DNA from: Thermoplasmatota archaeon
GTDB lineage: Archaea > Thermoplasmatota > Thermoplasmata > UBA10834
Length of the DNA stretch: 47,110 nucleotides
Assembly (NCBI GenBank): GCA_016930135.1
Contig: JAFGHM010000001.1
Span: 1-47,110, forward strand
Reading direction: 5' to 3'
The notes beneath the pieces are model-generated. The model was not told where the DNA came from and searched no databases. It worked only from the letters and a program-made list of their open reading frames with translations. The translations under genes were made by a program, and so were the position numbers. Of this stretch, positions 34,237 to 47,025 are shown one piece after another; positions within the stretch are counted from its first letter, which is position 1; each line of letters starts with the position of its first letter.

Positions 34237-37200
34237 TTGGGCCTTATCGACGCTCTACTCAACAAGGAGAAGAAGCTGCATGAGAGGACCAAGAAGGAGC
34301 TGGCGAAGGTGGATTCTCTCGACAAGGGCGGCAGACCAGCGGAGGCGCTTGCTGAGCTGGAAAAGACCGGCAATCTCCTGAAGGAGAACATGCTCTTCAT
34401 CGGCAAGATGCGGTTCGAGTTCGCCGTCCTGTTCTCGGATCTCGGAGACAAGTACCTCAGGTTTGAGAAGCCCGACAGAGCCGACGACGCCGCCAAGGTG
34501 GCTCTGCAGCTTGATCCCAAGAACGCCAACGCGATGGGAGTGGAAGGCCGGGCCGCCCTCAAGCTGGGCATGAACGACGTGGCCCTGACATCGCTGAATA
34601 ATGCTGTCCAGACGTCTCCTCGCGCTGAGAACCTCTGGGTTGCCCTAGGGGATGTTCAGAGCGCGATAGGCGACGAGGTTGCTGCCGTGGAGAGCTACAG
34701 GCGGGCGCTGGATCTCAACCCGGACGAGATCGCGAACTACGACAGGATACTCCGGCACGACCCCCACGACATGCAGATGATCAAGATGAAGGCCGCAGCT
34801 CTGACGAGGCTGCGGAGATATGAAGAGGCTGTTGCCGTCTACAAAGAAGGGCTGCAGACTGCGCCCAAGGACAAGGACCTGTGGATTGGCATGGCGGCTT
34901 CGCTGGACTTCGCGGGCATGGGCGAGGAGGCCATAACAGCCCTGAACTCAGCGCTCAAGATAGGCCCTAAGGATCCGCAGTGCTTGGAAAGCCTGGGACG
35001 AATACTCCACAAGCTCGGCAGGCAGGAGGAGGCCAGGAAGGCGCTCAGGAAGGCAGTGCAATATGACGAGAAGAACAAAGGCATCTGGAACGAGCTCGGA
35101 GTCGTCGAGCAGGAGCTGGACAGATACGACGACGCCCTCGAGTCTTTCGAGCAGGCCTTGGAGATCGACCCCAAGGACATGACCGTATTGGCGAACAAGA
35201 AGAAGACTCTCGCCCACATGGACAGGCATGAGGAAGTCATTGCGACCTGCGACCTCATCCTCCTGCTGAACCCAGCCGATGCCGAGTGCCTTCTTGACAA
35301 GGCGAAGGCCTTCTTCGCTTTACAGAGGTTCCCAGAGGCGCTGGCGTTCGCGGAATCCTCTCTGCATCTGGTTCCCAAGTCGAGGGATGCCATCAACCTG
35401 AAGAAGGAGTGCTTGATCAAACTCGGTAGACACGCTGATGTCGTCGCTTGGTGCGCCAAGATCATCGAGCTGGATCCTAACGATTACGTCGCCATGCATG
35501 ACAAGGGCGTTGCGCAGATGAAATCCGGGCGGGCCCACGATGCTGTGAAGACCTTCGAGAAGGCCCTGAAGCACGCCCCTGATCCCCTGCCGCTTCTCGT
35601 GAGCCTCAAGGAGGCATACAAGATGCTTCAAAGGGACGACCTTGTCGTTCAGACCTGCGACCGTGTCCTGGAGATCGACCCGAAGAACAAGGGGGCTCAC
35701 CTCGACAAGTCCGTGGCACTCGACAGAGCCGAGAAGTTCGACGAGGCGGTCGCAGCCTATCTAATGGCTCTCAAGAACGACCCTGAGAGTGCGGATCTAT
35801 ACCACAACCTGGCCGCACTTCACCTGCGCGTGGGAAAGGCGAAGGAGGCGCAGGAATACGCAAGGCAGGGGCTCAAGATCGCGCCATCGGATTACGGTCT
35901 CTGGAGACTGCGGGCGGAGGCCAGTTACAAGCTGCAGGAGTTCGATGAAGCCGTCTCGGCCTACACGAAGTCGGTGGAGCTGGTGCCCACCGACAAGGGC
36001 TCCTTCGTGGCCCTCGGGCGGGCGCTGATCGAACTGAAGCGCTTCGAGCAGGCGCTTCTGGCCTTCGACCGGGCGATCAAGCTCGACCCCTCCGACGCCA
36101 ACACATGGTTCCAGCAGGCCCTGGCACTCGAATGGCTCGAGCGATTCGAAGACGCCCTCTCGTCCGTGAGGGAGGCAGTCAGATCTAGCCCGGCAGTGCC
36201 GGAGTACAGGATCAAGGAAGGGGTGATGCTCGCTCGCATGAACAAGCCAGATGAGGCCCTTCTTGCCTACGACGAAGCCCTGAGGCTGGTTCCGAAGAAC
36301 CTGCCGGTCATGATCGCCAAGAGAGAACTCCTGAAGAGCCTGAAGAGGTACGAAGAGGTGATCGCGATATGCAACGAGATACTCGCCGCGAACCCCAGAG
36401 ACAGGGACACACTCACGGATAGGGGAAGTGCCTCGCTGTTCCTGAAGAGACCGAATGATGCTCTCGTGTCCTTCAACAAGGCCCTCGAGCACAACAAGGA
36501 CGATCTCGACCTCCTGGAGCTCAAAAAGATGGCGCTGATTGCCATGGATGACGCTGAGAGTGTGGTCCATGTCGCCGACCATATACTCAGACTCAGCCCG
36601 GAGAACAAGAGCGCATTCGCGGACAGGGGCAATGCCCTCGACAAGCTCGGAAGGAGCGACGAGGCGCTCAAGAGCTATGAGGAGGCGCTAGCGCTCGACC
36701 CTAAGGACGTCTACCTTCTCAACAGGAAAGGGATGCTGCTCCTGGCCGACGGCAACCCCGCCCAGGCTGCGGAGACCTTCGAGTTTGCAATCAAGCTCGA
36801 CTCCAATCAGCCTTTCGTGTTGAACAACAGGGGGAAGGCGTATCTCGAGCTGCGGAGGTTCGACGAGGCGCTCGCGGACTTCAGAAAGGCAATCACAATC
36901 CTTCCGAACGTGGCCGAGTTCCACATGAACGAGGGACGGACGCTCGCCAGCGTGGGAAAGTTCGACGAGGGTATCGGTTCCTTCAACGAGGCCAGGAGGT
37001 TGGCGCCCCAGGATGTCGGCGTGCTGAAGTACATGGGCATGGCCCTCCTGAAGCTGAACAGGGTTTCCGAGGCTCTCGGGATTTTCGACGAGGCGATCAG
37101 GCTCGGCTCCAACGACAAGGACATGTGGAAGAGCCGCGCGAAGGCGTTCGAGGCCACCGGTGACAAGGAGGAGGCCATCAAGTCATACATGCGCGCGCTC

Positions 37201-38694
37201 GATGTCGACCCTCAGGACCAGGCGGCCTGGTATCGTCTCGGGCTGCTCCACACGGAGGTCGGGAGGAACATAGATGCGAACGCATGCTTCGACAGGGCCT
37301 TGGACATCGATAGCTCCAACGCCAAGATATGGATGAGCAAGGGTTTCGCCATGGAGAAGCAAGGCCTGCTGGAGGAGGCCGTGAGCTCGTACGACCGAGC
37401 CATAGGCCTCGACTCGAATGACAAGGAGGCCTGGAATAGCAAGGCGCAGGTGCTCATGGGGCTCGGCAGGGCGGAGCAGGCCCTGAGGTGCTTCGAGCAC
37501 GCGCTCAGCATCGACCCGTACTTCGAGGCCGCGGCAGAAGGCAGGAAGCAGGCGGAGGAGGACATACGCAGGAACAAGATAGAGGACTACTCACGGGCCG
37601 TGCTAGACTTCGAATACACTCACGGCAGGCCCGTCTCCAAGGAGGAGGCGTTCAGGGTGTGCGGCATCCCCTACGCTTTCCTAGGCGACGTGATGGAGTT
37701 CCTGAGTGGCAAGGTGGAGTTCAGCCTCTCCGGGATGAGCAGAGAGGATTTCGAGAGGTACGAGAAGATGGCGAGGGAGGTCCTCGTCAACGCAATGGAG
37801 AAGCGGGACCTCGCCGCCCACGGGCTGAGGTTCTGCGACATCACAGTCAACTTCCCCGAGCTGAAGATCTCCAGCGCGAAGAAGATCCTGAGCTACATAC
37901 AAGCTGTCGAGGAGCACGAGTTCTCGACGAAGGTGACGGACCCGCAGACCGAGACCCTCCTCAGGCAGGCCCTTGAACTCCCGAACGACCAGAAGAACGT
38001 CCTCGGGCTGATCAGGAACCTGGGAGTAGGCCCCTACTGGGCCCGTCAGCTCACGACCATCCTGCACACGTTCCATGAAGCCGGCGTATCGACTCAGACG
38101 GTCGCACTGAGGTCCATAGTCAGCGAAGGGTACGGTCGGTATGTGCCCTATGATGAGCGGGAGGTCAGACGAGCGACCCCGGAGATGCTCGAGGAATACG
38201 AGGGCAGGCGACCGAGACAGAGGCCTCCGCCCCAACGGGGGCGGAGGGAATACGAAGCCCCTGAGGAGGAGGAGCCCGGCCCGCGGAGGCGGTACAGCAA
38301 GGAGGTCGAGGCGGTCAGGCAGAGAATCTACGAGGAGACCCCGAGCGCTAGGCCTAAGAAGGAGACTCAGAAGCAGGAGGAGGAAGTGCCCTCGGATCTC
38401 GTGGGCAGAAGGTGTCTCTTCCACGGGGGCGTGGCTGTTGCCAGGTGCAGGAAGTGCAAGGCGGTTCTCTGCAGGGAGTGTGTCAGAGGGTCCGACCGTT
38501 GCCCGAGGTGCAACACGCCTCTCAGGGAAGTGACGGAGGGGAGGCCCGAGAGGCGAAGGGCTGAGGAGCCGGAAGAGGAGGAGGCCGAAGGAGAGGCCGA
38601 GGAGGAGCCGGAAGAGGAGAGGCCGAAGAAGAGGGCCAGGGAGCAGAGGCGGGATAAGAAGAAGCCTTCAGAGGACGACCTCAGCAGGCTCTGA
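34237..38694 (+). CDS. Giant (1485 aa) TPR-repeat protein with a C-terminal B-box-like zinc finger and charged tails
   Basis: About 30+ 34-aa TPR units (e.g. AWYRLGLLHTEVGRNIDANACFDRALDIDSSN); CLFHGGVAVARCRKCKAVLCRECVRGSDRCPRC; TTG start after AGGTGA. Confidence 0.92.
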   Translation: MGLIDALLNKEKKLHERTKKELAKVDSLDKGGRPAEALAELEKTGNLLKENMLFIGKMRFEFAVLFSDLGDKYLRFEKPDRADDAAKVALQLDPKNANAMGVEGRAALKLGMNDVALTSLNNAVQTSPRAENLWVALGDVQSAIGDEVAAVESYRRALDLNPDEIANYDRILRHDPHDMQMIKMKAAALTRLRRYEEAVAVYKEGLQTAPKDKDLWIGMAASLDFAGMGEEAITALNSALKIGPKDPQCLESLGRILHKLGRQEEARKALRKAVQYDEKNKGIWNELGVVEQELDRYDDALESFEQALEIDPKDMTVLANKKKTLAHMDRHEEVIATCDLILLLNPADAECLLDKAKAFFALQRFPEALAFAESSLHLVPKSRDAINLKKECLIKLGRHADVVAWCAKIIELDPNDYVAMHDKGVAQMKSGRAHDAVKTFEKALKHAPDPLPLLVSLKEAYKMLQRDDLVVQTCDRVLEIDPKNKGAHLDKSVALDRAEKFDEAVAAYLMALKNDPESADLYHNLAALHLRVGKAKEAQEYARQGLKIAPSDYGLWRLRAEASYKLQEFDEAVSAYTKSVELVPTDKGSFVALGRALIELKRFEQALLAFDRAIKLDPSDANTWFQQALALEWLERFEDALSSVREAVRSSPAVPEYRIKEGVMLARMNKPDEALLAYDEALRLVPKNLPVMIAKRELLKSLKRYEEVIAICNEILAANPRDRDTLTDRGSASLFLKRPNDALVSFNKALEHNKDDLDLLELKKMALIAMDDAESVVHVADHILRLSPENKSAFADRGNALDKLGRSDEALKSYEEALALDPKDVYLLNRKGMLLLADGNPAQAAETFEFAIKLDSNQPFVLNNRGKAYLELRRFDEALADFRKAITILPNVAEFHMNEGRTLASVGKFDEGIGSFNEARRLAPQDVGVLKYMGMALLKLNRVSEALGIFDEAIRLGSNDKDMWKSRAKAFEATGDKEEAIKSYMRALDVDPQDQAAWYRLGLLHTEVGRNIDANACFDRALDIDSSNAKIWMSKGFAMEKQGLLEEAVSSYDRAIGLDSNDKEAWNSKAQVLMGLGRAEQALRCFEHALSIDPYFEAAAEGRKQAEEDIRRNKIEDYSRAVLDFEYTHGRPVSKEEAFRVCGIPYAFLGDVMEFLSGKVEFSLSGMSREDFERYEKMAREVLVNAMEKRDLAAHGLRFCDITVNFPELKISSAKKILSYIQAVEEHEFSTKVTDPQTETLLRQALELPNDQKNVLGLIRNLGVGPYWARQLTTILHTFHEAGVSTQTVALRSIVSEGYGRYVPYDEREVRRATPEMLEEYEGRRPRQRPPPQRGRREYEAPEEEEPGPRRRYSKEVEAVRQRIYEETPSARPKKETQKQEEEVPSDLVGRRCLFHGGVAVARCRKCKAVLCRECVRGSDRCPRCNTPLREVTEGRPERRRAEEPEEEEAEGEAEEEPEEERPKKRAREQRRDKKKPSEDDLSRL

Positions 38695-40421: not shown

Positions 40422-40949
40422 ATGAGGCGCTTCACCGAACCTGCGGGAGGACCGGGGCCGATGCGAGTGTGCAACAGGTGCAAGAGAGAGACGGAACAGA
40501 TGTTCTGCCCGCACTGCCATGTCCTCACATATCCTCCGAGAACGCCTGGAGCGTCGCCCAAGTCCGCTGCCGGCGACGTCTTTGACTGCACGGTATGGCA
40601 GGGTCCTAACAGGAACAGGGGCATCGAGGTCTCTCCTGACAGCAGGGAGAGGTTCTTCTCGAAGAGTCACGACATGGTGATCCTCCACATCGAGGGCAGG
40701 AGGACCGTGGCCAAGCTGGGCCCTCAGTTCTGGAAGAAGCCCTCGGTGATCAAGAAGGCGTTGGATGATGCTGGCAGGGACCAGCTGATCAAGTTCTTCG
40801 AGAAGCACCACCTGCTACCTCCGAGCCAATCGATCAAGGAGAAGGGAATAGTCGACACGGTTGTGTTCGAAGTGGTCACCCCCACCGAGGAGTTCAAGAT
40901 AGCAGTGACCGAGAGGACGGAGGAGGAGAGGGCGCAAGAGCTCGACTAG
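40422..40949 (+). CDS. Zinc-ribbon hypothetical protein
   Basis: MRVCNRCKRETEQMFCPHC (two CxxC) followed by an uncharacterised ~130-aa domain. Confidence 0.7.
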   Translation: MRRFTEPAGGPGPMRVCNRCKRETEQMFCPHCHVLTYPPRTPGASPKSAAGDVFDCTVWQGPNRNRGIEVSPDSRERFFSKSHDMVILHIEGRRTVAKLGPQFWKKPSVIKKALDDAGRDQLIKFFEKHHLLPPSQSIKEKGIVDTVVFEVVTPTEEFKIAVTERTEEERAQELD

Positions 40950-42145
40950 ACGAGCCCGAGCTTCTTCCCGATCTTCTCGAACGCTCCGAGGGCCTCATCT
41001 AGGTCCGCCCTAGTCAGCGCAGCGTTCATTATCGTCCTTATCCTCGCCTTGTCCCGGGCGACCATCGGGAACACGATCGGAAGGGCGAACATGTTCATTT
41101 CGAAGAGCAGGGAGCTGAAGCGCTTCGCGGCTCCACTCTCGCCGATCATGACTGGGACTATGGGCGTCTGACTCTTGCCCGTATCGAATCCCAGTGACTG
41201 TATGCCCTTTCTGAAGTAGTCCGTGTTGGCCCACAGGCTCCTCACATGCTGGGGCTCCGTCTCGAGGACGTCCACCGCGGCGATGCAGGCAGCTACGACC
41301 GCAGGCGGATGCGAGCCGCTCAGGAGCCATGTCCTCGACTTGTTGTAGGCGTAGTTGACGAGATCCCTGCTGCCAGAGATATGCCCCCCGACTACCCCGA
41401 AGGCCTTGGAGAACGTGCCCATCTCGACATGGACGTCATTTCTGCCCAGGCGGAAGTGCGACACGATGCCTCTGCCGCCCTCGCCGAGAACGCCCTCCCC
41501 GTGAGCATCGTCAACATAGACCATCGCTCCGTGCGCGCGCGCGATCTTGGCAATCGAATCGAGTGGGGCGATGTCGCCGTCCATGCTGAACACGCCATCG
41601 GAGATGACGAGTATCCTCCTGTAGGCCGGGATGTGTTTCTCTGCATCTGCCATGACCTTCTCGAGGTCCGCGACATCGCAGTGCTTGTAGACCGCTCGGT
41701 CTGCTTTGGAGAGCCTCACGCCGTCTATGATGCTCCCGTGGTTGAGCTCGTCACTGACTATCAGGTCCCCCTCGTCCGCGAGCTGGGGGATCAAGCCCGA
41801 ATTGGCCGCGAACCCCGTCTGATACACGAGCGAGGCTTCTGCGTCCTTGAACCTTGCCAACCGTCGTTCGAGCTCCATGTGCAAGTCCATGTTGCCAGCT
41901 ATCGGCCTGACGGATCCGGAACCCGCACCGTGTGTCTTCACCGCATCGATCGCAGCTGCTTTGAGCTTCGGATGGTTGCTCAGGCTGAGGTAGTTGTTCG
42001 AACATAGCATGAGGACCTGCTTGCCGTCGACTACACACCTCGTGGTACTCGGGCCCTGCAGAACCCTCAGCTTCCAGTCGAGCTCAGCCTCGACAAGGCC
42101 CTTGTACTCGCTCCCAAGGAAACCTACGGGATCTCTCGAGGGCAT
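40946..42145 (-). CDS. kbl: Glycine C-acetyltransferase (2-amino-3-ketobutyrate CoA ligase)
   Basis: LCSNNYLSLSNHPKLKAAAIDAVKTHGAGSGSVRPIAGNMDLHMELERRLARF; PLP-lysine region MGTFSKAFGVVGGHISG; followed by tdh. Confidence 0.95.
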   Translation of the reverse strand: MPSRDPVGFLGSEYKGLVEAELDWKLRVLQGPSTTRCVVDGKQVLMLCSNNYLSLSNHPKLKAAAIDAVKTHGAGSGSVRPIAGNMDLHMELERRLARFKDAEASLVYQTGFAANSGLIPQLADEGDLIVSDELNHGSIIDGVRLSKADRAVYKHCDVADLEKVMADAEKHIPAYRRILVISDGVFSMDGDIAPLDSIAKIARAHGAMVYVDDAHGEGVLGEGGRGIVSHFRLGRNDVHVEMGTFSKAFGVVGGHISGSRDLVNYAYNKSRTWLLSGSHPPAVVAACIAAVDVLETEPQHVRSLWANTDYFRKGIQSLGFDTGKSQTPIVPVMIGESGAAKRFSSLLFEMNMFALPIVFPMVARDKARIRTIMNAALTRADLDEALGAFEKIGKKLGLV

Positions 42146-42149
42146 ATCG

Positions 42150-43217
42150 TCACCACTCAGGCCTCAGGGACACCTTGGCGGCCTCCTTTGTGCGTATCAG
42201 CCGCATACCCTCCTCGATGTCCCTAATGGGTATCGAGTGGGAGATAATTGAGGCTATCTTCTCTCTGAAGGCTGGCTTCTTCAGGAGAAGGTACATCTGG
42301 TCCCATGTCTGGAACATCCTCCTGCCTGTGATGCCGAAGACGGTCGCTGACTTGAATGTGATCGCGTTGTTGACATCGAGGGTGACGGTGTCGTTGTAGA
42401 GGCCGAGTATCGATATCCTTCCGCCGGGTGTGAGCATGTCGAAGCACTGCTTGAGCGCTACGGCCGCTCCCGACATCTCGAGACAGACATCCGCGCCGTT
42501 CCCGTCGGTAGCATCTTTCACCGTCTCCACGAGCGCCTCCGTGCCCATGCCCGCGTCGAGGACCATGTCAGCGCCCATCTTGTATCCCAGGGCGGACCTG
42601 ACCTTTTCGCTCGCGAGCTCGCTCATGATGACCTGCCTCGCCCCAACGGCCTTCAGGATCGCGACCGCCATCAGACCTATCGGGCCGCCCCCAGTGACGA
42701 CCACGTTCTTCCCCTTGACATCGCTCACGCAGTCGTTCGGCATGACCGTGAATGTGGCATTGCCCAGAGGCTCCAGGAGCGAGCCCAGGTGCGGCTTGAC
42801 GCCTGCGGGCACCTTCCGGGCGTTCCGCTCCGGCAGGAGCACATACTCCGCGAAGACGCCGTCAGTGTCAACTCCGAGTATCTTCAAGTTCTTGCATATG
42901 TGCATCCGATCCGTCCTGCACTGGTAGCAGGTCCCGTCGACTATGTGGGTCTCGGCGGAGACGATGTTCCCCTCCTTGACGCTCTTGACGCCCTCGCCCA
43001 CATCGACCACCCTTCCGCAGAGCTCGTGGCCGAAAATTATGGGCAGGGACTTGACGCGCTTCTGGGCCCAGTGGTTCCAGTCCCAGATGTGCACGTCCGT
43101 GCCGCAGATGGACGACATCAGCGTCTCGACGAGCACCTCGCCCTTCCCCGCGACCGGTCTCTCCACATCCTCTATTCGAGCGCCCGGCTGCCTGTATCTC
43201 TTGACCACGGCATGCAT
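42150..43217 (-). CDS. tdh: L-threonine 3-dehydrogenase
   Basis: CGTDVHIWDWNHWAQKRVKSLPIIFGHELCGRVVDVG; CYQCRTDRMHICKNLKILGVDTDGVFAEY; GGGPIGLMAVAILKAVGA. Confidence 0.95.
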   Translation of the reverse strand: MHAVVKRYRQPGARIEDVERPVAGKGEVLVETLMSSICGTDVHIWDWNHWAQKRVKSLPIIFGHELCGRVVDVGEGVKSVKEGNIVSAETHIVDGTCYQCRTDRMHICKNLKILGVDTDGVFAEYVLLPERNARKVPAGVKPHLGSLLEPLGNATFTVMPNDCVSDVKGKNVVVTGGGPIGLMAVAILKAVGARQVIMSELASEKVRSALGYKMGADMVLDAGMGTEALVETVKDATDGNGADVCLEMSGAAVALKQCFDMLTPGGRISILGLYNDTVTLDVNNAITFKSATVFGITGRRMFQTWDQMYLLLKKPAFREKIASIISHSIPIRDIEEGMRLIRTKEAAKVSLRPEW

Positions 43218-43518: not shown

Positions 43519-44898
43519 CTAAACAGCACCCTTGCCGACCGGGATTGCATTCCCGGGTCTGGGCAGAACCGACCTGCAGCTCTTGCACCTCGCAAACAGC
43601 TCCGGATGCTCCGTATGGACCGGTATCACGACGCCGGGGGATACGCGGTCGATTATGCTGAATATCTCCGACATGCTCGCATGGCCAGAGGCGTGCGCCT
43701 GCCTGAAATCGAGCCCGAACCAATTGACCCAGTTCTGGAGCACCTCCTCCTGGATGTCGTCCTCCTCGAACGGCTCGCTCTTCGATCTTATGAAGAGGCT
43801 GTCGCGCTTCGGCTGTATGTCGATCAGCTCCGTGAGCTGGAAGAAGTCCGTATGCATCATCAGCTCTGCCTGATGCTTCCTCACGTAGTCCGAGTCCACC
43901 ACGTGCGCGTCCTTCTCAAGCAGTTCCGCGTAGACCTTCTCGTACTTGACCCTGTCCATATTGGCCATCCTCCTGACGTAGACCAGCATGGACGAATCTC
44001 TCATAGGGTCCGGGGCGTCTATGTGCTCGTCGTCCTGGAGCATCTTGAGCATGTGAGCGACCTTGGCCGAGACGACGAACTTCCTGCCAGTGGCCTTGGC
44101 GACATCCCGAAAGGTCCTGATCCTGTCGACGTCCTTGGGATAGAACGATACTATTGCCAGCTTGTCGGAGGAACTGACCAGCTCACGCGCCCTCTTGCCA
44201 ACATCGACCTCCGACATGTTCTCTCGCGGGTCGCTCTCGGACACCCTTGTTCCCTCGCATATCATCGCAATAGGCCTCTCGGAGGAAGCACGGGCGACGA
44301 AGTCTTCCGTCATGTCTCCTCTCGGTCCGTGGAGGCGAAGATCTCCTGTGTAGGCGATGGCGCCCTCGGATGTGTGGACGATGAAACCGTACGCGCCAGG
44401 GGTGGAGTGGTCGACATGTATGGGCTCGACCTCGATGGAACCGACCTTGATCTTGCTCCCAGTCCGGAACTCCCTGAACTCGTGCTCCCCGAACTTGACC
44501 TTGCCCAAACTTGTCTCGGTCCAGGATCTCCTGATCGCGTTCGCCGTGGCCCCGAGGTAGACAGGGATGTTACGATCTGCGAACCTCAGGTGCATCGAGT
44601 GGTCGAAGTGCATGTGCGAGATGAATATCGCATCGAACTCCGGGGGCACGTAGGTGAGGTCCGTGTCCTCGAGGTATTCCTCATCGTAAACTCCCTTTAT
44701 CCTCGGCATCAGTTTGAAATGGAAGTAGTCCCTGAGTCCGAACCTGCCTTCCCTAGGGGATAGGAAGTCGACGAAGTAATCGTCGAGCAGGCCGAATGGC
44801 TCACCGAAGTCCAGGAATATCCTTGTGTCACGGTCCTCGAGCAGTATCTTGTTGCCGCCTATCTGGCCGGCACCTCCGTGGACTGTAATCGAGACCAT
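43519..44898 (-). CDS. MBL-fold (RNase J-like, beta-CASP type) metallohydrolase
   Basis: HGGAGQIGGNKILLED, FISHMHFDHS (HxHxDH), YTGDLRLHG, C-terminal ASGHASMSEIFSIIDRVSPGVVIPVHTEHPELF. Confidence 0.87.
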   Translation of the reverse strand: MVSITVHGGAGQIGGNKILLEDRDTRIFLDFGEPFGLLDDYFVDFLSPREGRFGLRDYFHFKLMPRIKGVYDEEYLEDTDLTYVPPEFDAIFISHMHFDHSMHLRFADRNIPVYLGATANAIRRSWTETSLGKVKFGEHEFREFRTGSKIKVGSIEVEPIHVDHSTPGAYGFIVHTSEGAIAYTGDLRLHGPRGDMTEDFVARASSERPIAMICEGTRVSESDPRENMSEVDVGKRARELVSSSDKLAIVSFYPKDVDRIRTFRDVAKATGRKFVVSAKVAHMLKMLQDDEHIDAPDPMRDSSMLVYVRRMANMDRVKYEKVYAELLEKDAHVVDSDYVRKHQAELMMHTDFFQLTELIDIQPKRDSLFIRSKSEPFEEDDIQEEVLQNWVNWFGLDFRQAHASGHASMSEIFSIIDRVSPGVVIPVHTEHPELFARCKSCRSVLPRPGNAIPVGKGAV

Positions 44899-45599
44899 CA
44901 GGTCACCTCCCCTCTGACATCGAGAGACCCGCACTTGAATCCGGTACTGCGGCAATCAAGGTTTGGGTTGCCATCGAAGGCGAACTCCTCCAACCTCGGC
45001 ATCCTGACGGCTTTCCTGCCGATGCCATCCACTACGTCGGCAAGCCTGAGCCATGTGGGCAGATCCTTGAGTCCGGATATTCGCTCTGCATCCGCATACC
45101 TGTTGTAAAACCTGTCCACGAGTATCGCCTCGATCCCATGCTCTTTTACCGGGAATATGTCCAGCCTCGGCATGTCGCCGACCATGATGGCCTCGTCCTT
45201 GCTCAGGCCGCGCCTTGAGAGATACCTGGAGATGTTCTTGCCCTTGTTGCCGTTGAGCAGCACACCATCGAAGTACTGTCTTATTCCGAATTTCGCCAGC
45301 AGAGCGTAGAGGATCTCGGGCGAGTTGCGGGACACCAGGCACAGAGTATCAGATCGGGCGCGTATGTCTGCAAGCGCCTCATTCACGCCCTCGTCGAGCT
45401 CGAAGAACTCGAGTGCTAGCTCGAGGGATGGGTTCATCCAGAACTCCCAGCGCGATCTCCCGTGCTTCGGCACATAAAGCGTCCCCTCTGCGTCTACAAA
45501 GACGTGCTTGAACCTTCTCTGCTTCATGGGCTTCTTACCTTCTGGCAACCCATAGAGCGGCTCATCCAGTATTGTTGGTCTCCAGAGACAGTATGACAA
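44898..45599 (-). CDS. HAD-superfamily hydrolase-like protein
   Basis: FVDAEGTLYVP (DxDGT-like), LCLVSRNS, LLNGNKGKNISRYLSRRGLSKDEAIMVGDMPRLDIFPVKEHGIEAI; stop overlaps the MBL start (TGATG-type coupling); start may be internal Met at 45527. Confidence 0.78.
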   Translation of the reverse strand: MSYCLWRPTILDEPLYGLPEGKKPMKQRRFKHVFVDAEGTLYVPKHGRSRWEFWMNPSLELALEFFELDEGVNEALADIRARSDTLCLVSRNSPEILYALLAKFGIRQYFDGVLLNGNKGKNISRYLSRRGLSKDEAIMVGDMPRLDIFPVKEHGIEAILVDRFYNRYADAERISGLKDLPTWLRLADVVDGIGRKAVRMPRLEEFAFDGNPNLDCRSTGFKCGSLDVRGEVT

Positions 45600-45630
45600 C
45601 CATTGATACCGAGTGAACTGGCCGACACAT

Positions 45631-45656
45631 TATAATAGTATTATCATAAATATGAT
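45631..45656. promoter_or_regulatory. Two adjacent perfect palindromes (ATAATA-G-TATTAT; ATCATA-AA-TATGAT) in the divergent HAD/CARF-HTH intergenic region
   Basis: Read directly: 45632-45644 and 45643-45656; flanked by TGATACC (45604-45610)/GGTATCA (45657-45663). Confidence 0.65.
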
Positions 45657-45694
45657 GGTATCACAAACTGTAAAAAGGCCCCAACGCCTTCCGT

Positions 45695-46378
45695 ATGATG
45701 GTGAAGGAAATGGTCGCGGTCTTCGGAACTCTCGGCTTCAGGCACGATTCTCTCATACCCACGATAAGGTCAACGCCGAATGTGGATAAGGTGGTGTTCT
45801 ACTGCGGTGCGGACAAGTCCGAACCCTCAGCTGTCAAGTCGGTCGCCGCTGCGAGGAGGGCGGTCCTGGACTACTGTCGCGAGATGAAGATCGCAGCCGA
45901 GGCGGTCGACCTTCAGGATCCCTTCGACTTCAAGTCGATCGCGAAGCGGATCAGGGCGGATGTCAGGCGTTACAAGAAGGATGGCAAGGAGATCGCGGTC
46001 TTCAACATCGCAGGGGGAACGCGCCCGACATCCTCCGCTGCCCTGCTCACATGCATGCTCGAGGGGATACCCACGGTGTACGTGCATGACATCACTTACG
46101 ATGAGATACCTCTGCCGCTCATGCGCATGGAGTACAGCAAGATACTGTCCGGCGAGGAGAGGCACGTGCTCCAGACCCTGCTGAAGAGCAGGGCGAAGGA
46201 GATGACCGAGGTCGAGCTGGCTAAGGCTATCGGCAAGCACAAGGCGACCGTGAACCACCATGTGAAGAACCTGGTCGCCAAGGGGGTTCTGAGGCTCGAG
46301 AGGCATCCCAAGGACGCGAGGAAGAAGGTGCTGACGGTGGACGATTCCGTCGAGCTGCTGCTGGGTGAGGACGATTGA
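45695..46378 (+). CDS. CARF-like domain + winged-HTH transcriptional regulator (first of tandem pair)
   Basis: Rossmann-like N-terminus VAVFGTLGFRHDSLIPTI; CARF-type motif FNIAGGTRPTSSAALLTCML; C-terminal wHTH TEVELAKAIGKHKATVNHHVKNLVAKGVLRLERH. Confidence 0.83.
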   Translation: MMVKEMVAVFGTLGFRHDSLIPTIRSTPNVDKVVFYCGADKSEPSAVKSVAAARRAVLDYCREMKIAAEAVDLQDPFDFKSIAKRIRADVRRYKKDGKEIAVFNIAGGTRPTSSAALLTCMLEGIPTVYVHDITYDEIPLPLMRMEYSKILSGEERHVLQTLLKSRAKEMTEVELAKAIGKHKATVNHHVKNLVAKGVLRLERHPKDARKKVLTVDDSVELLLGEDD

Positions 46379-47025
46379 GAGTGCTTGCCTCGACCTTCAA
46401 GCAGGGCGATGTCGAGAAGATCCTCGAGGCCATGAGAAGCCTCCCCTATGACAGGCTGGTCCTCATAGGCATGCCGGGATTCGAGGAATGCGAGGACCTC
46501 AAGAGAATCGAGCGCCTCGAGGAGATGGCCAGGCGAAAGGTGGAGGTCTCGTTCACGGAGGAGAGCGATTTCAAGGACATCGTGGCCCAGGTTGCTGAGA
46601 CCCTCGCGAGATATCTCAGGAGCAGCCGGGACTCCGAGGGCGGCAGCGTCGTGCTGAACATCAGCGGAGGCTCGAAACTCCTGGGCGACGCAGCGCTACT
46701 GGCGGCGTTTGAGCTAGGCGTCGAGGCATACCACATAGACGGAAGAGTGACAAGGCTACCCGTGATCCGAGGCGCTACCATCAGGGATAGGTTCACGAAG
46801 AATCAGGCGAGGATGATAGAGGCGATCGGAAAGGACACCTTGACCTTGGAGGATGTGGTCTCCAGGATGCAGCCGATGAGCCGACAGACAGTGGATCGCG
46901 TCATCAGGGAACTCAAGCGAGACAGGCTCATCGACTCGCGAGGCGATGGCGGGAAGGTAATGCTCTGGCTCACGCCTCCGGGACGGGAAGTCCTGAGAGC
47001 TCTCAGGCTGACAAGGGCAGGCTAG
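46375..47025 (+). CDS. CARF-like domain + winged-HTH regulator (second of tandem pair)
   Basis: VLNISGGSKLLGDAALLAAFELGVEAYHID (CARF-type G-G-[ST] motif); C-terminal HTH LEDVVSRMQPMSRQTVDRVIRELKRDRLIDS; TTG start overlaps upstream TGA. Confidence 0.8.
   Translation: MRVLASTFKQGDVEKILEAMRSLPYDRLVLIGMPGFEECEDLKRIERLEEMARRKVEVSFTEESDFKDIVAQVAETLARYLRSSRDSEGGSVVLNISGGSKLLGDAALLAAFELGVEAYHIDGRVTRLPVIRGATIRDRFTKNQARMIEAIGKDTLTLEDVVSRMQPMSRQTVDRVIRELKRDRLIDSRGDGGKVMLWLTPPGREVLRALRLTRAG

Follow-up and report, generated by a model that had tools for sequence, protein, structure and literature searches.

A tandem pair of CARF-winged helix-turn-helix paralogues kept together across the archaeal class Thermoplasmata, a probable regulator of RNA-metabolism genes

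The right end of the 47-kb window (the whole stretch of DNA analyzed here) carries two overlapping genes, ORF1 and ORF2, each of which encodes a CARF domain followed by a winged helix-turn-helix (wHTH) domain. The reading that we favor, with moderate confidence, is that their products constitute a ligand-gated, self-regulating, and probably heteromeric regulator of RNA-metabolism genes. CARF domains are taken almost automatically as sensors of type III CRISPR messengers, and a coupled pair that has been kept in a class of archaea without Cas10 offers a well-defined setting in which to ask about other signals that such a domain may sense. The same question about the CARF ligand outside CRISPR is raised by the work on HFX_2341 (PMC11434293), and the predicted operator and the named target genes described below make it testable in vitro.

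The two proteins and their conservation

ORF1 (CARF-A, 45695..46378, plus strand) encodes 227 residues starting from an ATG codon, with the CARF domain spanning approximately residues 6–140 and the wHTH domain approximately residues 152–224; alignment with its relatives points to Met6 (position 45710) as the likelier start. ORF2 (CARF-B, 46375..47025, plus strand) encodes 216 residues starting from a TTG codon, with the CARF domain comprising residues 1–130 and a variable wHTH domain residues 142–200. The stop of ORF1 and the start of ORF2 overlap, with the bases TTGA common to both. The two consecutive ORFs with their order of domains, the overlap, and the sequences NIAGGTRP and NISGGSKL (residues 104–111 of ORF1 and 95–102 of ORF2) had been pointed out in a preliminary description of this DNA, with which the coordinates of both ORFs agree.

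ORF1 and ORF2 are CARF-wHTH proteins. Each of them is matched over its full length by a PADLOC model of the CARF3 group (PDLC01853 for ORF1, E 8e-88, and PDLC01856 for ORF2, E 1e-36), and the AlphaFold models, each consisting of a CARF and a wHTH domain, have pLDDT values of 91.5 and 91.9, respectively. The top solved fold for both of them is Csa3 (Foldseek against the PDB, E 6e-10 and 2e-8), and the features characteristic of the CARF superfamily are all present, namely a Rossmann-like fold, motif 1 near β1, and motif 2 (G-h-R/K) after β4. The cut-off of Pfam PF19810 (30) is marginally passed by both proteins, with scores of 30.7 and 32.0. The wHTH domain of ORF1 scores above the Pfam MarR cut-off and the HTH matches of ORF2 are sub-threshold, with the secondary structure in the AlphaFold models in agreement. 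A library of viral structures yielded only poor matches or matches at the level of the wHTH domain. The domain assignment proposed earlier, a CARF-like N-terminal and a winged HTH C-terminal domain in each protein, is thus upheld by PADLOC, AlphaFold, and Foldseek alike.

As judged by profile comparison and phylogeny, the two proteins are ancient paralogues. Their profiles align with an hhalign probability of 99.7 (E 2e-26) at only 17% identity, in line with the earlier suggestion of divergent paralogues, and in the tree all A sequences are found on one branch and all B sequences on the other, with full bootstrap support. Relatives were retrieved with the ORF1 alignment, as ORF2, used as a single-protein query of the genome contigs, was too divergent and gave none. 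ORF1 was found in 51 of the 400 genomes of the class Thermoplasmata. ORF2 lies directly downstream of it, on the same strand, in 46 of the 47 genomes in which the contig continues, the sole exception being a genome (G178) whose ORF1 is broken; the question of whether the two genes stay neighbors in relatives, posed in the preliminary description, is answered by these counts. The gap between the two genes is mostly −4 to +10 bp, reaching 52 bp in part of family f23. Such a persistent side-by-side arrangement across the class indicates that the pair of ORFs is not due to chance, and the pair looks vertically inherited.

The two halves of the pair are conserved to a very different degree, ORF1 much more strongly than ORF2 and above all in the wHTH domain, where the share of the most common residue is 0.59 in ORF1 vs 0.36 in ORF2. 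In the recognition helix of ORF1, Lys183, Thr185, Asn187, and His189 are invariant in all 26 sequences compared, whereas the corresponding helix of ORF2 contains no invariant residues and its wHTH domain is poorly conserved. Motif 2, which is the phosphate-binding motif of Csa3 (PMC8699464), takes the form G-x-R in ORF1 (24 Arg and two Lys among 26 sequences) and G-x-K in ORF2 (22 Lys and one Arg among 29), with the basic residue lost in some ORF2s. Together with the near-obligate pairing, this imbalance in conservation between ORF1 and ORF2 points to an A–B heteromer as the probable functional form.

Alternatively, each gene could encode a homodimeric regulator with a ligand and an operator of its own, the two sharing no more than a transcript. 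Both Csa3 and MM_0565 are homodimeric (PMC8699464, PMC7465815), and complete CARF and wHTH domains have been retained in each ORF. Nevertheless, pairing that is almost obligate over a whole class would not be expected of two independent factors, and only one type of conserved element is seen. The drift of the wHTH domain of ORF2 and the loss of the basic residue from its motif 2, while ORF1 keeps its own, would also be odd for an independent ligand-gated DNA-binding protein. We consider the arrangement with separate homodimers possible, but distinctly less probable than the joint regulator favored above.

CRISPR context and relation to known CARF proteins

No CRISPR-like repeats are present in the 47-kb window, the right edge of which coincides with the end of the contig. 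Beyond ORF2, the last 89 bases code on the minus strand for the C terminus of a GPN-loop GTPase rather than for a Cas protein, and in relatives the pair is likewise followed by this GTPase gene. The lack of a CRISPR-Cas context in the window, noted earlier, stands. Since the genome itself is only 85% complete, in 125 contigs, the argument for the absence of CRISPR rests on the relatives, which include a pair-bearing genome of the same genus that is 97% complete. Cas10 was detected in none of the 51 pair-bearing genomes, while the controls gave matches, and full-length Cas1 was present in four of the 51, none of them in the same order. No cas genes were seen around the pair in the neighborhoods of the relatives.

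These counts bear directly on the explanation that the pair is an ordinary Csa3-type CRISPR regulator, with its CRISPR locus missed in a fragmented assembly. While the closest solved fold and the incompleteness of the genome would fit such an explanation, the counts of Cas10 and Cas1, extending to the nearly complete genome of the same genus, do not, and neither do the GTPase gene downstream and the window free of repeats. In addition, both proteins fall below the cut-offs of the Csa3 family models, scoring 42.3 and 24.8 bits with TIGR01884 (cut-off 60.2) and 22.4 and 18.8 with Pfam Csa3_N (cut-off 27). A type III locus just past the right edge of the window, which the preliminary description had considered as a simpler explanation, is largely refuted by the Cas10 and Cas1 counts and by the neighborhoods, and we regard an ordinary Csa3 role as highly improbable. 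Two other sources of a nucleotide ligand were considered and rejected: no gene for the DAC (c-di-AMP) cyclase or for mCpol was found in the 51 pair-bearing genomes, the latter negative being weaker, as the mCpol control matched weakly and in one genome only.

Comparison with characterized CARF proteins reveals both similarities and clear differences. Csa3 (Csa3a/Csa3b of Sulfolobales) shares with the pair a CARF domain, a MarR-like wHTH domain, and motif 2 of the G-x-R type, in addition to being the nearest solved fold, but it is a CRISPR-linked homodimer that binds cA4, whereas the genes described here form a tandem pair, occur where Cas10 is absent, and score below the family cut-off. MM_0565 from Methanosarcina mazei (PMC7465815) is likewise an archaeal DNA-binding CARF-wHTH dimer, although it is CRISPR-linked and encoded by a single gene. 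A third parallel is HFX_2341, a CRISPR-independent CARF-HTH-like regulator of haloarchaea (PMC11434293) belonging to DUF6293 (PF19810, the model passed by both ORFs), which also combines a CARF-like N-terminal domain with a C-terminal HTH, is chromosomal and vertically inherited, and is found in genomes without CRISPR or a type III cyclase. HFX_2341, however, is a single global regulator of ~300 residues, rather than two shorter coupled paralogues with a conserved element of their own. Its equivalog model NF051475 (cut-off 500 bits) gives ORF1 a score of 18.7 and does not appear among the matches listed for ORF2, whose score with DUF6293_C (13.2) is also below the cut-off of 27. Regulation by CARF-HTH proteins outside CRISPR is therefore already known, and the rarity of such sensors implied in the preliminary description was too strong a claim. 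The full-length PADLOC matches similarly mean that the single families have already been catalogued as CARF proteins, although the PADLOC-DB CARF3 models are silent on pairing, element, partners, and function. No description of the pairing, the element, or the targets turned up in the published work that was searched, the scope of which did not extend to the main CARF classification survey.

The element upstream of ORF1 and the proposed mechanism

An element with the pattern GTATnA-N7-TnATAC-n-GTATnA recurs ~70 bp upstream of ORF1 in six family-level lineages. In the window it is represented by the tripartite, operator-like sequence GTATTA-N7-TATGAT-G-GTATCA (45638..45663, plus strand), positioned just 3′ of the TATA-like sequence ATTATAATA and ~70 bp upstream of the probable start codon of ORF1; with 25.9 bits it is the top match of the whole window, an in-sample value, as this site belongs to the training set. 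A second dyad, GTATGA-CAACCAT-TGATAC (45591..45609), is located in the same intergenic region closer to the divergent gene of a HAD-family phosphatase, and perfect or near-perfect dyads are likewise found at loci L045–L048.

Because the motif was first seen by eye in the same set of sequences, the weight of the evidence is carried by held-out tests and by loci not used in training. In a leave-one-family-out test, run for this reason, the motif was trained on all families but one and the ORF1 upstream regions of the held-out family were ranked against controls from that same family. They ranked first or nearly first in f1, f2, f15, f19, f20, and f27, that is, in six of the seven lineages, the result being weak in f23, where the copy in front of ORF1 is itself weak or GC-shifted. 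At eight loci outside the training set (L086–L090, L093, L102, and L109), the best match is placed at −64 to −70 with 23–27 bits; for L109, a close relative of the training genomes, the plus-strand match of an overlapping pair was counted. No match above 15 bits was found in 140 kb of control loci. Across the genome studied here, sites are not enriched relative to the control (11 vs 10), indicating that the regulon is small, and a large regulon was rejected on the same grounds.

The invariant recognition helix of ORF1 fits an operator conserved across families, and the likeliest protein to bind the element is ORF1. Another possible binder, the pair itself not being involved, is a different regulator, such as a ribbon-helix-helix protein encoded in f1. 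A perfect dyad, GTATGACA-N3-TGTCATAC, precedes its gene at loci L170–L172 and L175–L179 (with one mismatch in L175), the copy in the genome studied here being located at positions 514–532 of contig C78 (G000), and this dyad is also present in G012, a genome without the pair. The ribbon-helix-helix protein could bind the element in the genus of the window. Its orthologues (67–77% identity) were found only in f1 among the genomes searched and thus cannot explain an element that is present in f2, f15, f19, f20, and f27 as well, making this a rather improbable account of the element as a whole. The search for perfect dyads across the order that led to the ribbon-helix-helix gene revealed no new targets of the pair.

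Under the reading that we favor, ORF1 and ORF2 would be two subunits of one transcription factor, produced as a coupled pair, with their CARF domains dimerizing, most likely A with B, to create an asymmetric nucleotide pocket. The GTATnA half-sites would be read by the conserved wHTH domain of ORF1, while the role of ORF2 would be mainly in sensing and dimerization. In the absence of a signal, the complex would repress its own promoter from the tripartite operator, which separates the TATA region from the ORF1 start, and would also occupy the dyad facing the divergent operon and repress that operon. A nucleotide or an RNA-derived oligonucleotide not made by Cas10 would free the complex from DNA, turning on RNA-processing functions. 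The sign of regulation is proposed to be repression because the element is situated between the TATA-like sequence and the start codon, and a nucleotide or oligonucleotide is the presumed class of the ligand.

Neighboring genes and candidate targets

The divergent operon starts with the gene of the HAD-family phosphatase (44898..45527, minus strand, with a likely ATG start at 45527), followed by that of an RNase J-like β-CASP metallo-hydrolase (43519..44904, minus strand). The latter protein contains Pfam Lactamase_B_2 and RMMBL domains, scores below the cut-off of TIGR00649, and has structural matches to PDB 2az4 (E 6e-29) and to RNase J (E 9e-15). In the genus of the window the element lies between the pair and this operon, and the HAD gene is the divergent neighbor of the pair in f1, f15, and f19, with 37–43% identity between families. 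In part of f23, the element lies ~1.4 kb away from ORF1, where it precedes the gene of a PRC-barrel protein (recognized by eye) and an orthologue of the RNase J-like gene that is 48–51% identical to the one in the window. There it is the only or the main match per locus in eight genomes, none of which belonged to the training set, although several of the contigs are the same as loci scanned earlier. Two distinct gene arrangements thus place the same RNase J-like gene behind the element. Other neighbors of the pair, largely housekeeping genes, vary from one family to another; in f19 the pair is directly followed by the genes of CARF_m1 and a PIN nuclease, which in G002 are one gene away. The common theme of the partner genes is that they encode RNA-cleaving or phosphate-removing enzymes.

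These targets, together with the binding of tRNA fragments with a 2′,3′-cyclic phosphate by the CARF domain of RtcR (PMC7790460), suggest by analogy that the ligand may be RNA-derived oligonucleotides. RtcR resembles the pair in being a CARF sensor outside CRISPR with RNA-processing genes under its control, but it is a σ54 AAA+ activator, and the likeness is one of analogy. We can speculate further that A and B form an obligate heteromer, a CARF-wHTH sensor whose pocket is asymmetric and which responds to an RNA-derived or other oligonucleotide produced without Cas10 and controls RNA-processing enzymes. We offer this more specific reading only tentatively; if true, it would imply a CRISPR-free pathway of oligonucleotide signaling running through a whole archaeal class.

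The proximity of CARF_m1 and PIN raises another explanation, in which the pair senses a nucleotide made upon infection and controls these nucleases in a CRISPR-independent defense module leading to abortive infection. CARF-PIN genes are present in 26 of the 51 pair-bearing genomes vs 46 of the other 349 (Fisher p 5e-9, a value that ignores kinship), and the genes adjoin in f19, as described above. However, CARF-PIN usually occupies a separate locus, where the element is not found before the CARF_m1/PIN operon, and is missing from the numerous pair-bearing genomes of f23. The loci of the pair are conserved housekeeping neighborhoods rather than islands, and the apparent vertical inheritance seen in the tree also speaks against a defense role, which we judge to be unlikely, though not as improbable as binding of the element by another regulator.

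Several minor observations concern the same genomes. The two-gene CARF_m1 and PIN nuclease operon is found in contig C110 of the genome studied here (G000; locus L140, 4551–6121), and the PIN gene is present in 72 of the 400 genomes of the class, including this one, in which Cas10 was not detected. In locus L155 (G162), CARF_m1/PIN is at its usual spot, with what looks like a clean absence of the HAD gene and of the CARF pair, possibly a natural loss of the unit. Further element-like sites precede a gene of a BtuF-like binding protein (named by eye) in L087 (position 7353) and L090 (8909). Within the window, 40946–43217 is occupied by two genes likely to serve threonine breakdown, one similar by eye to glycine C-acetyltransferase and the other resembling a zinc alcohol/threonine dehydrogenase (Pfam), and the region 34237–38694 encodes a TPR-repeat-like protein of 1485 residues with a low-complexity, charged C terminus (both features recognized by eye).
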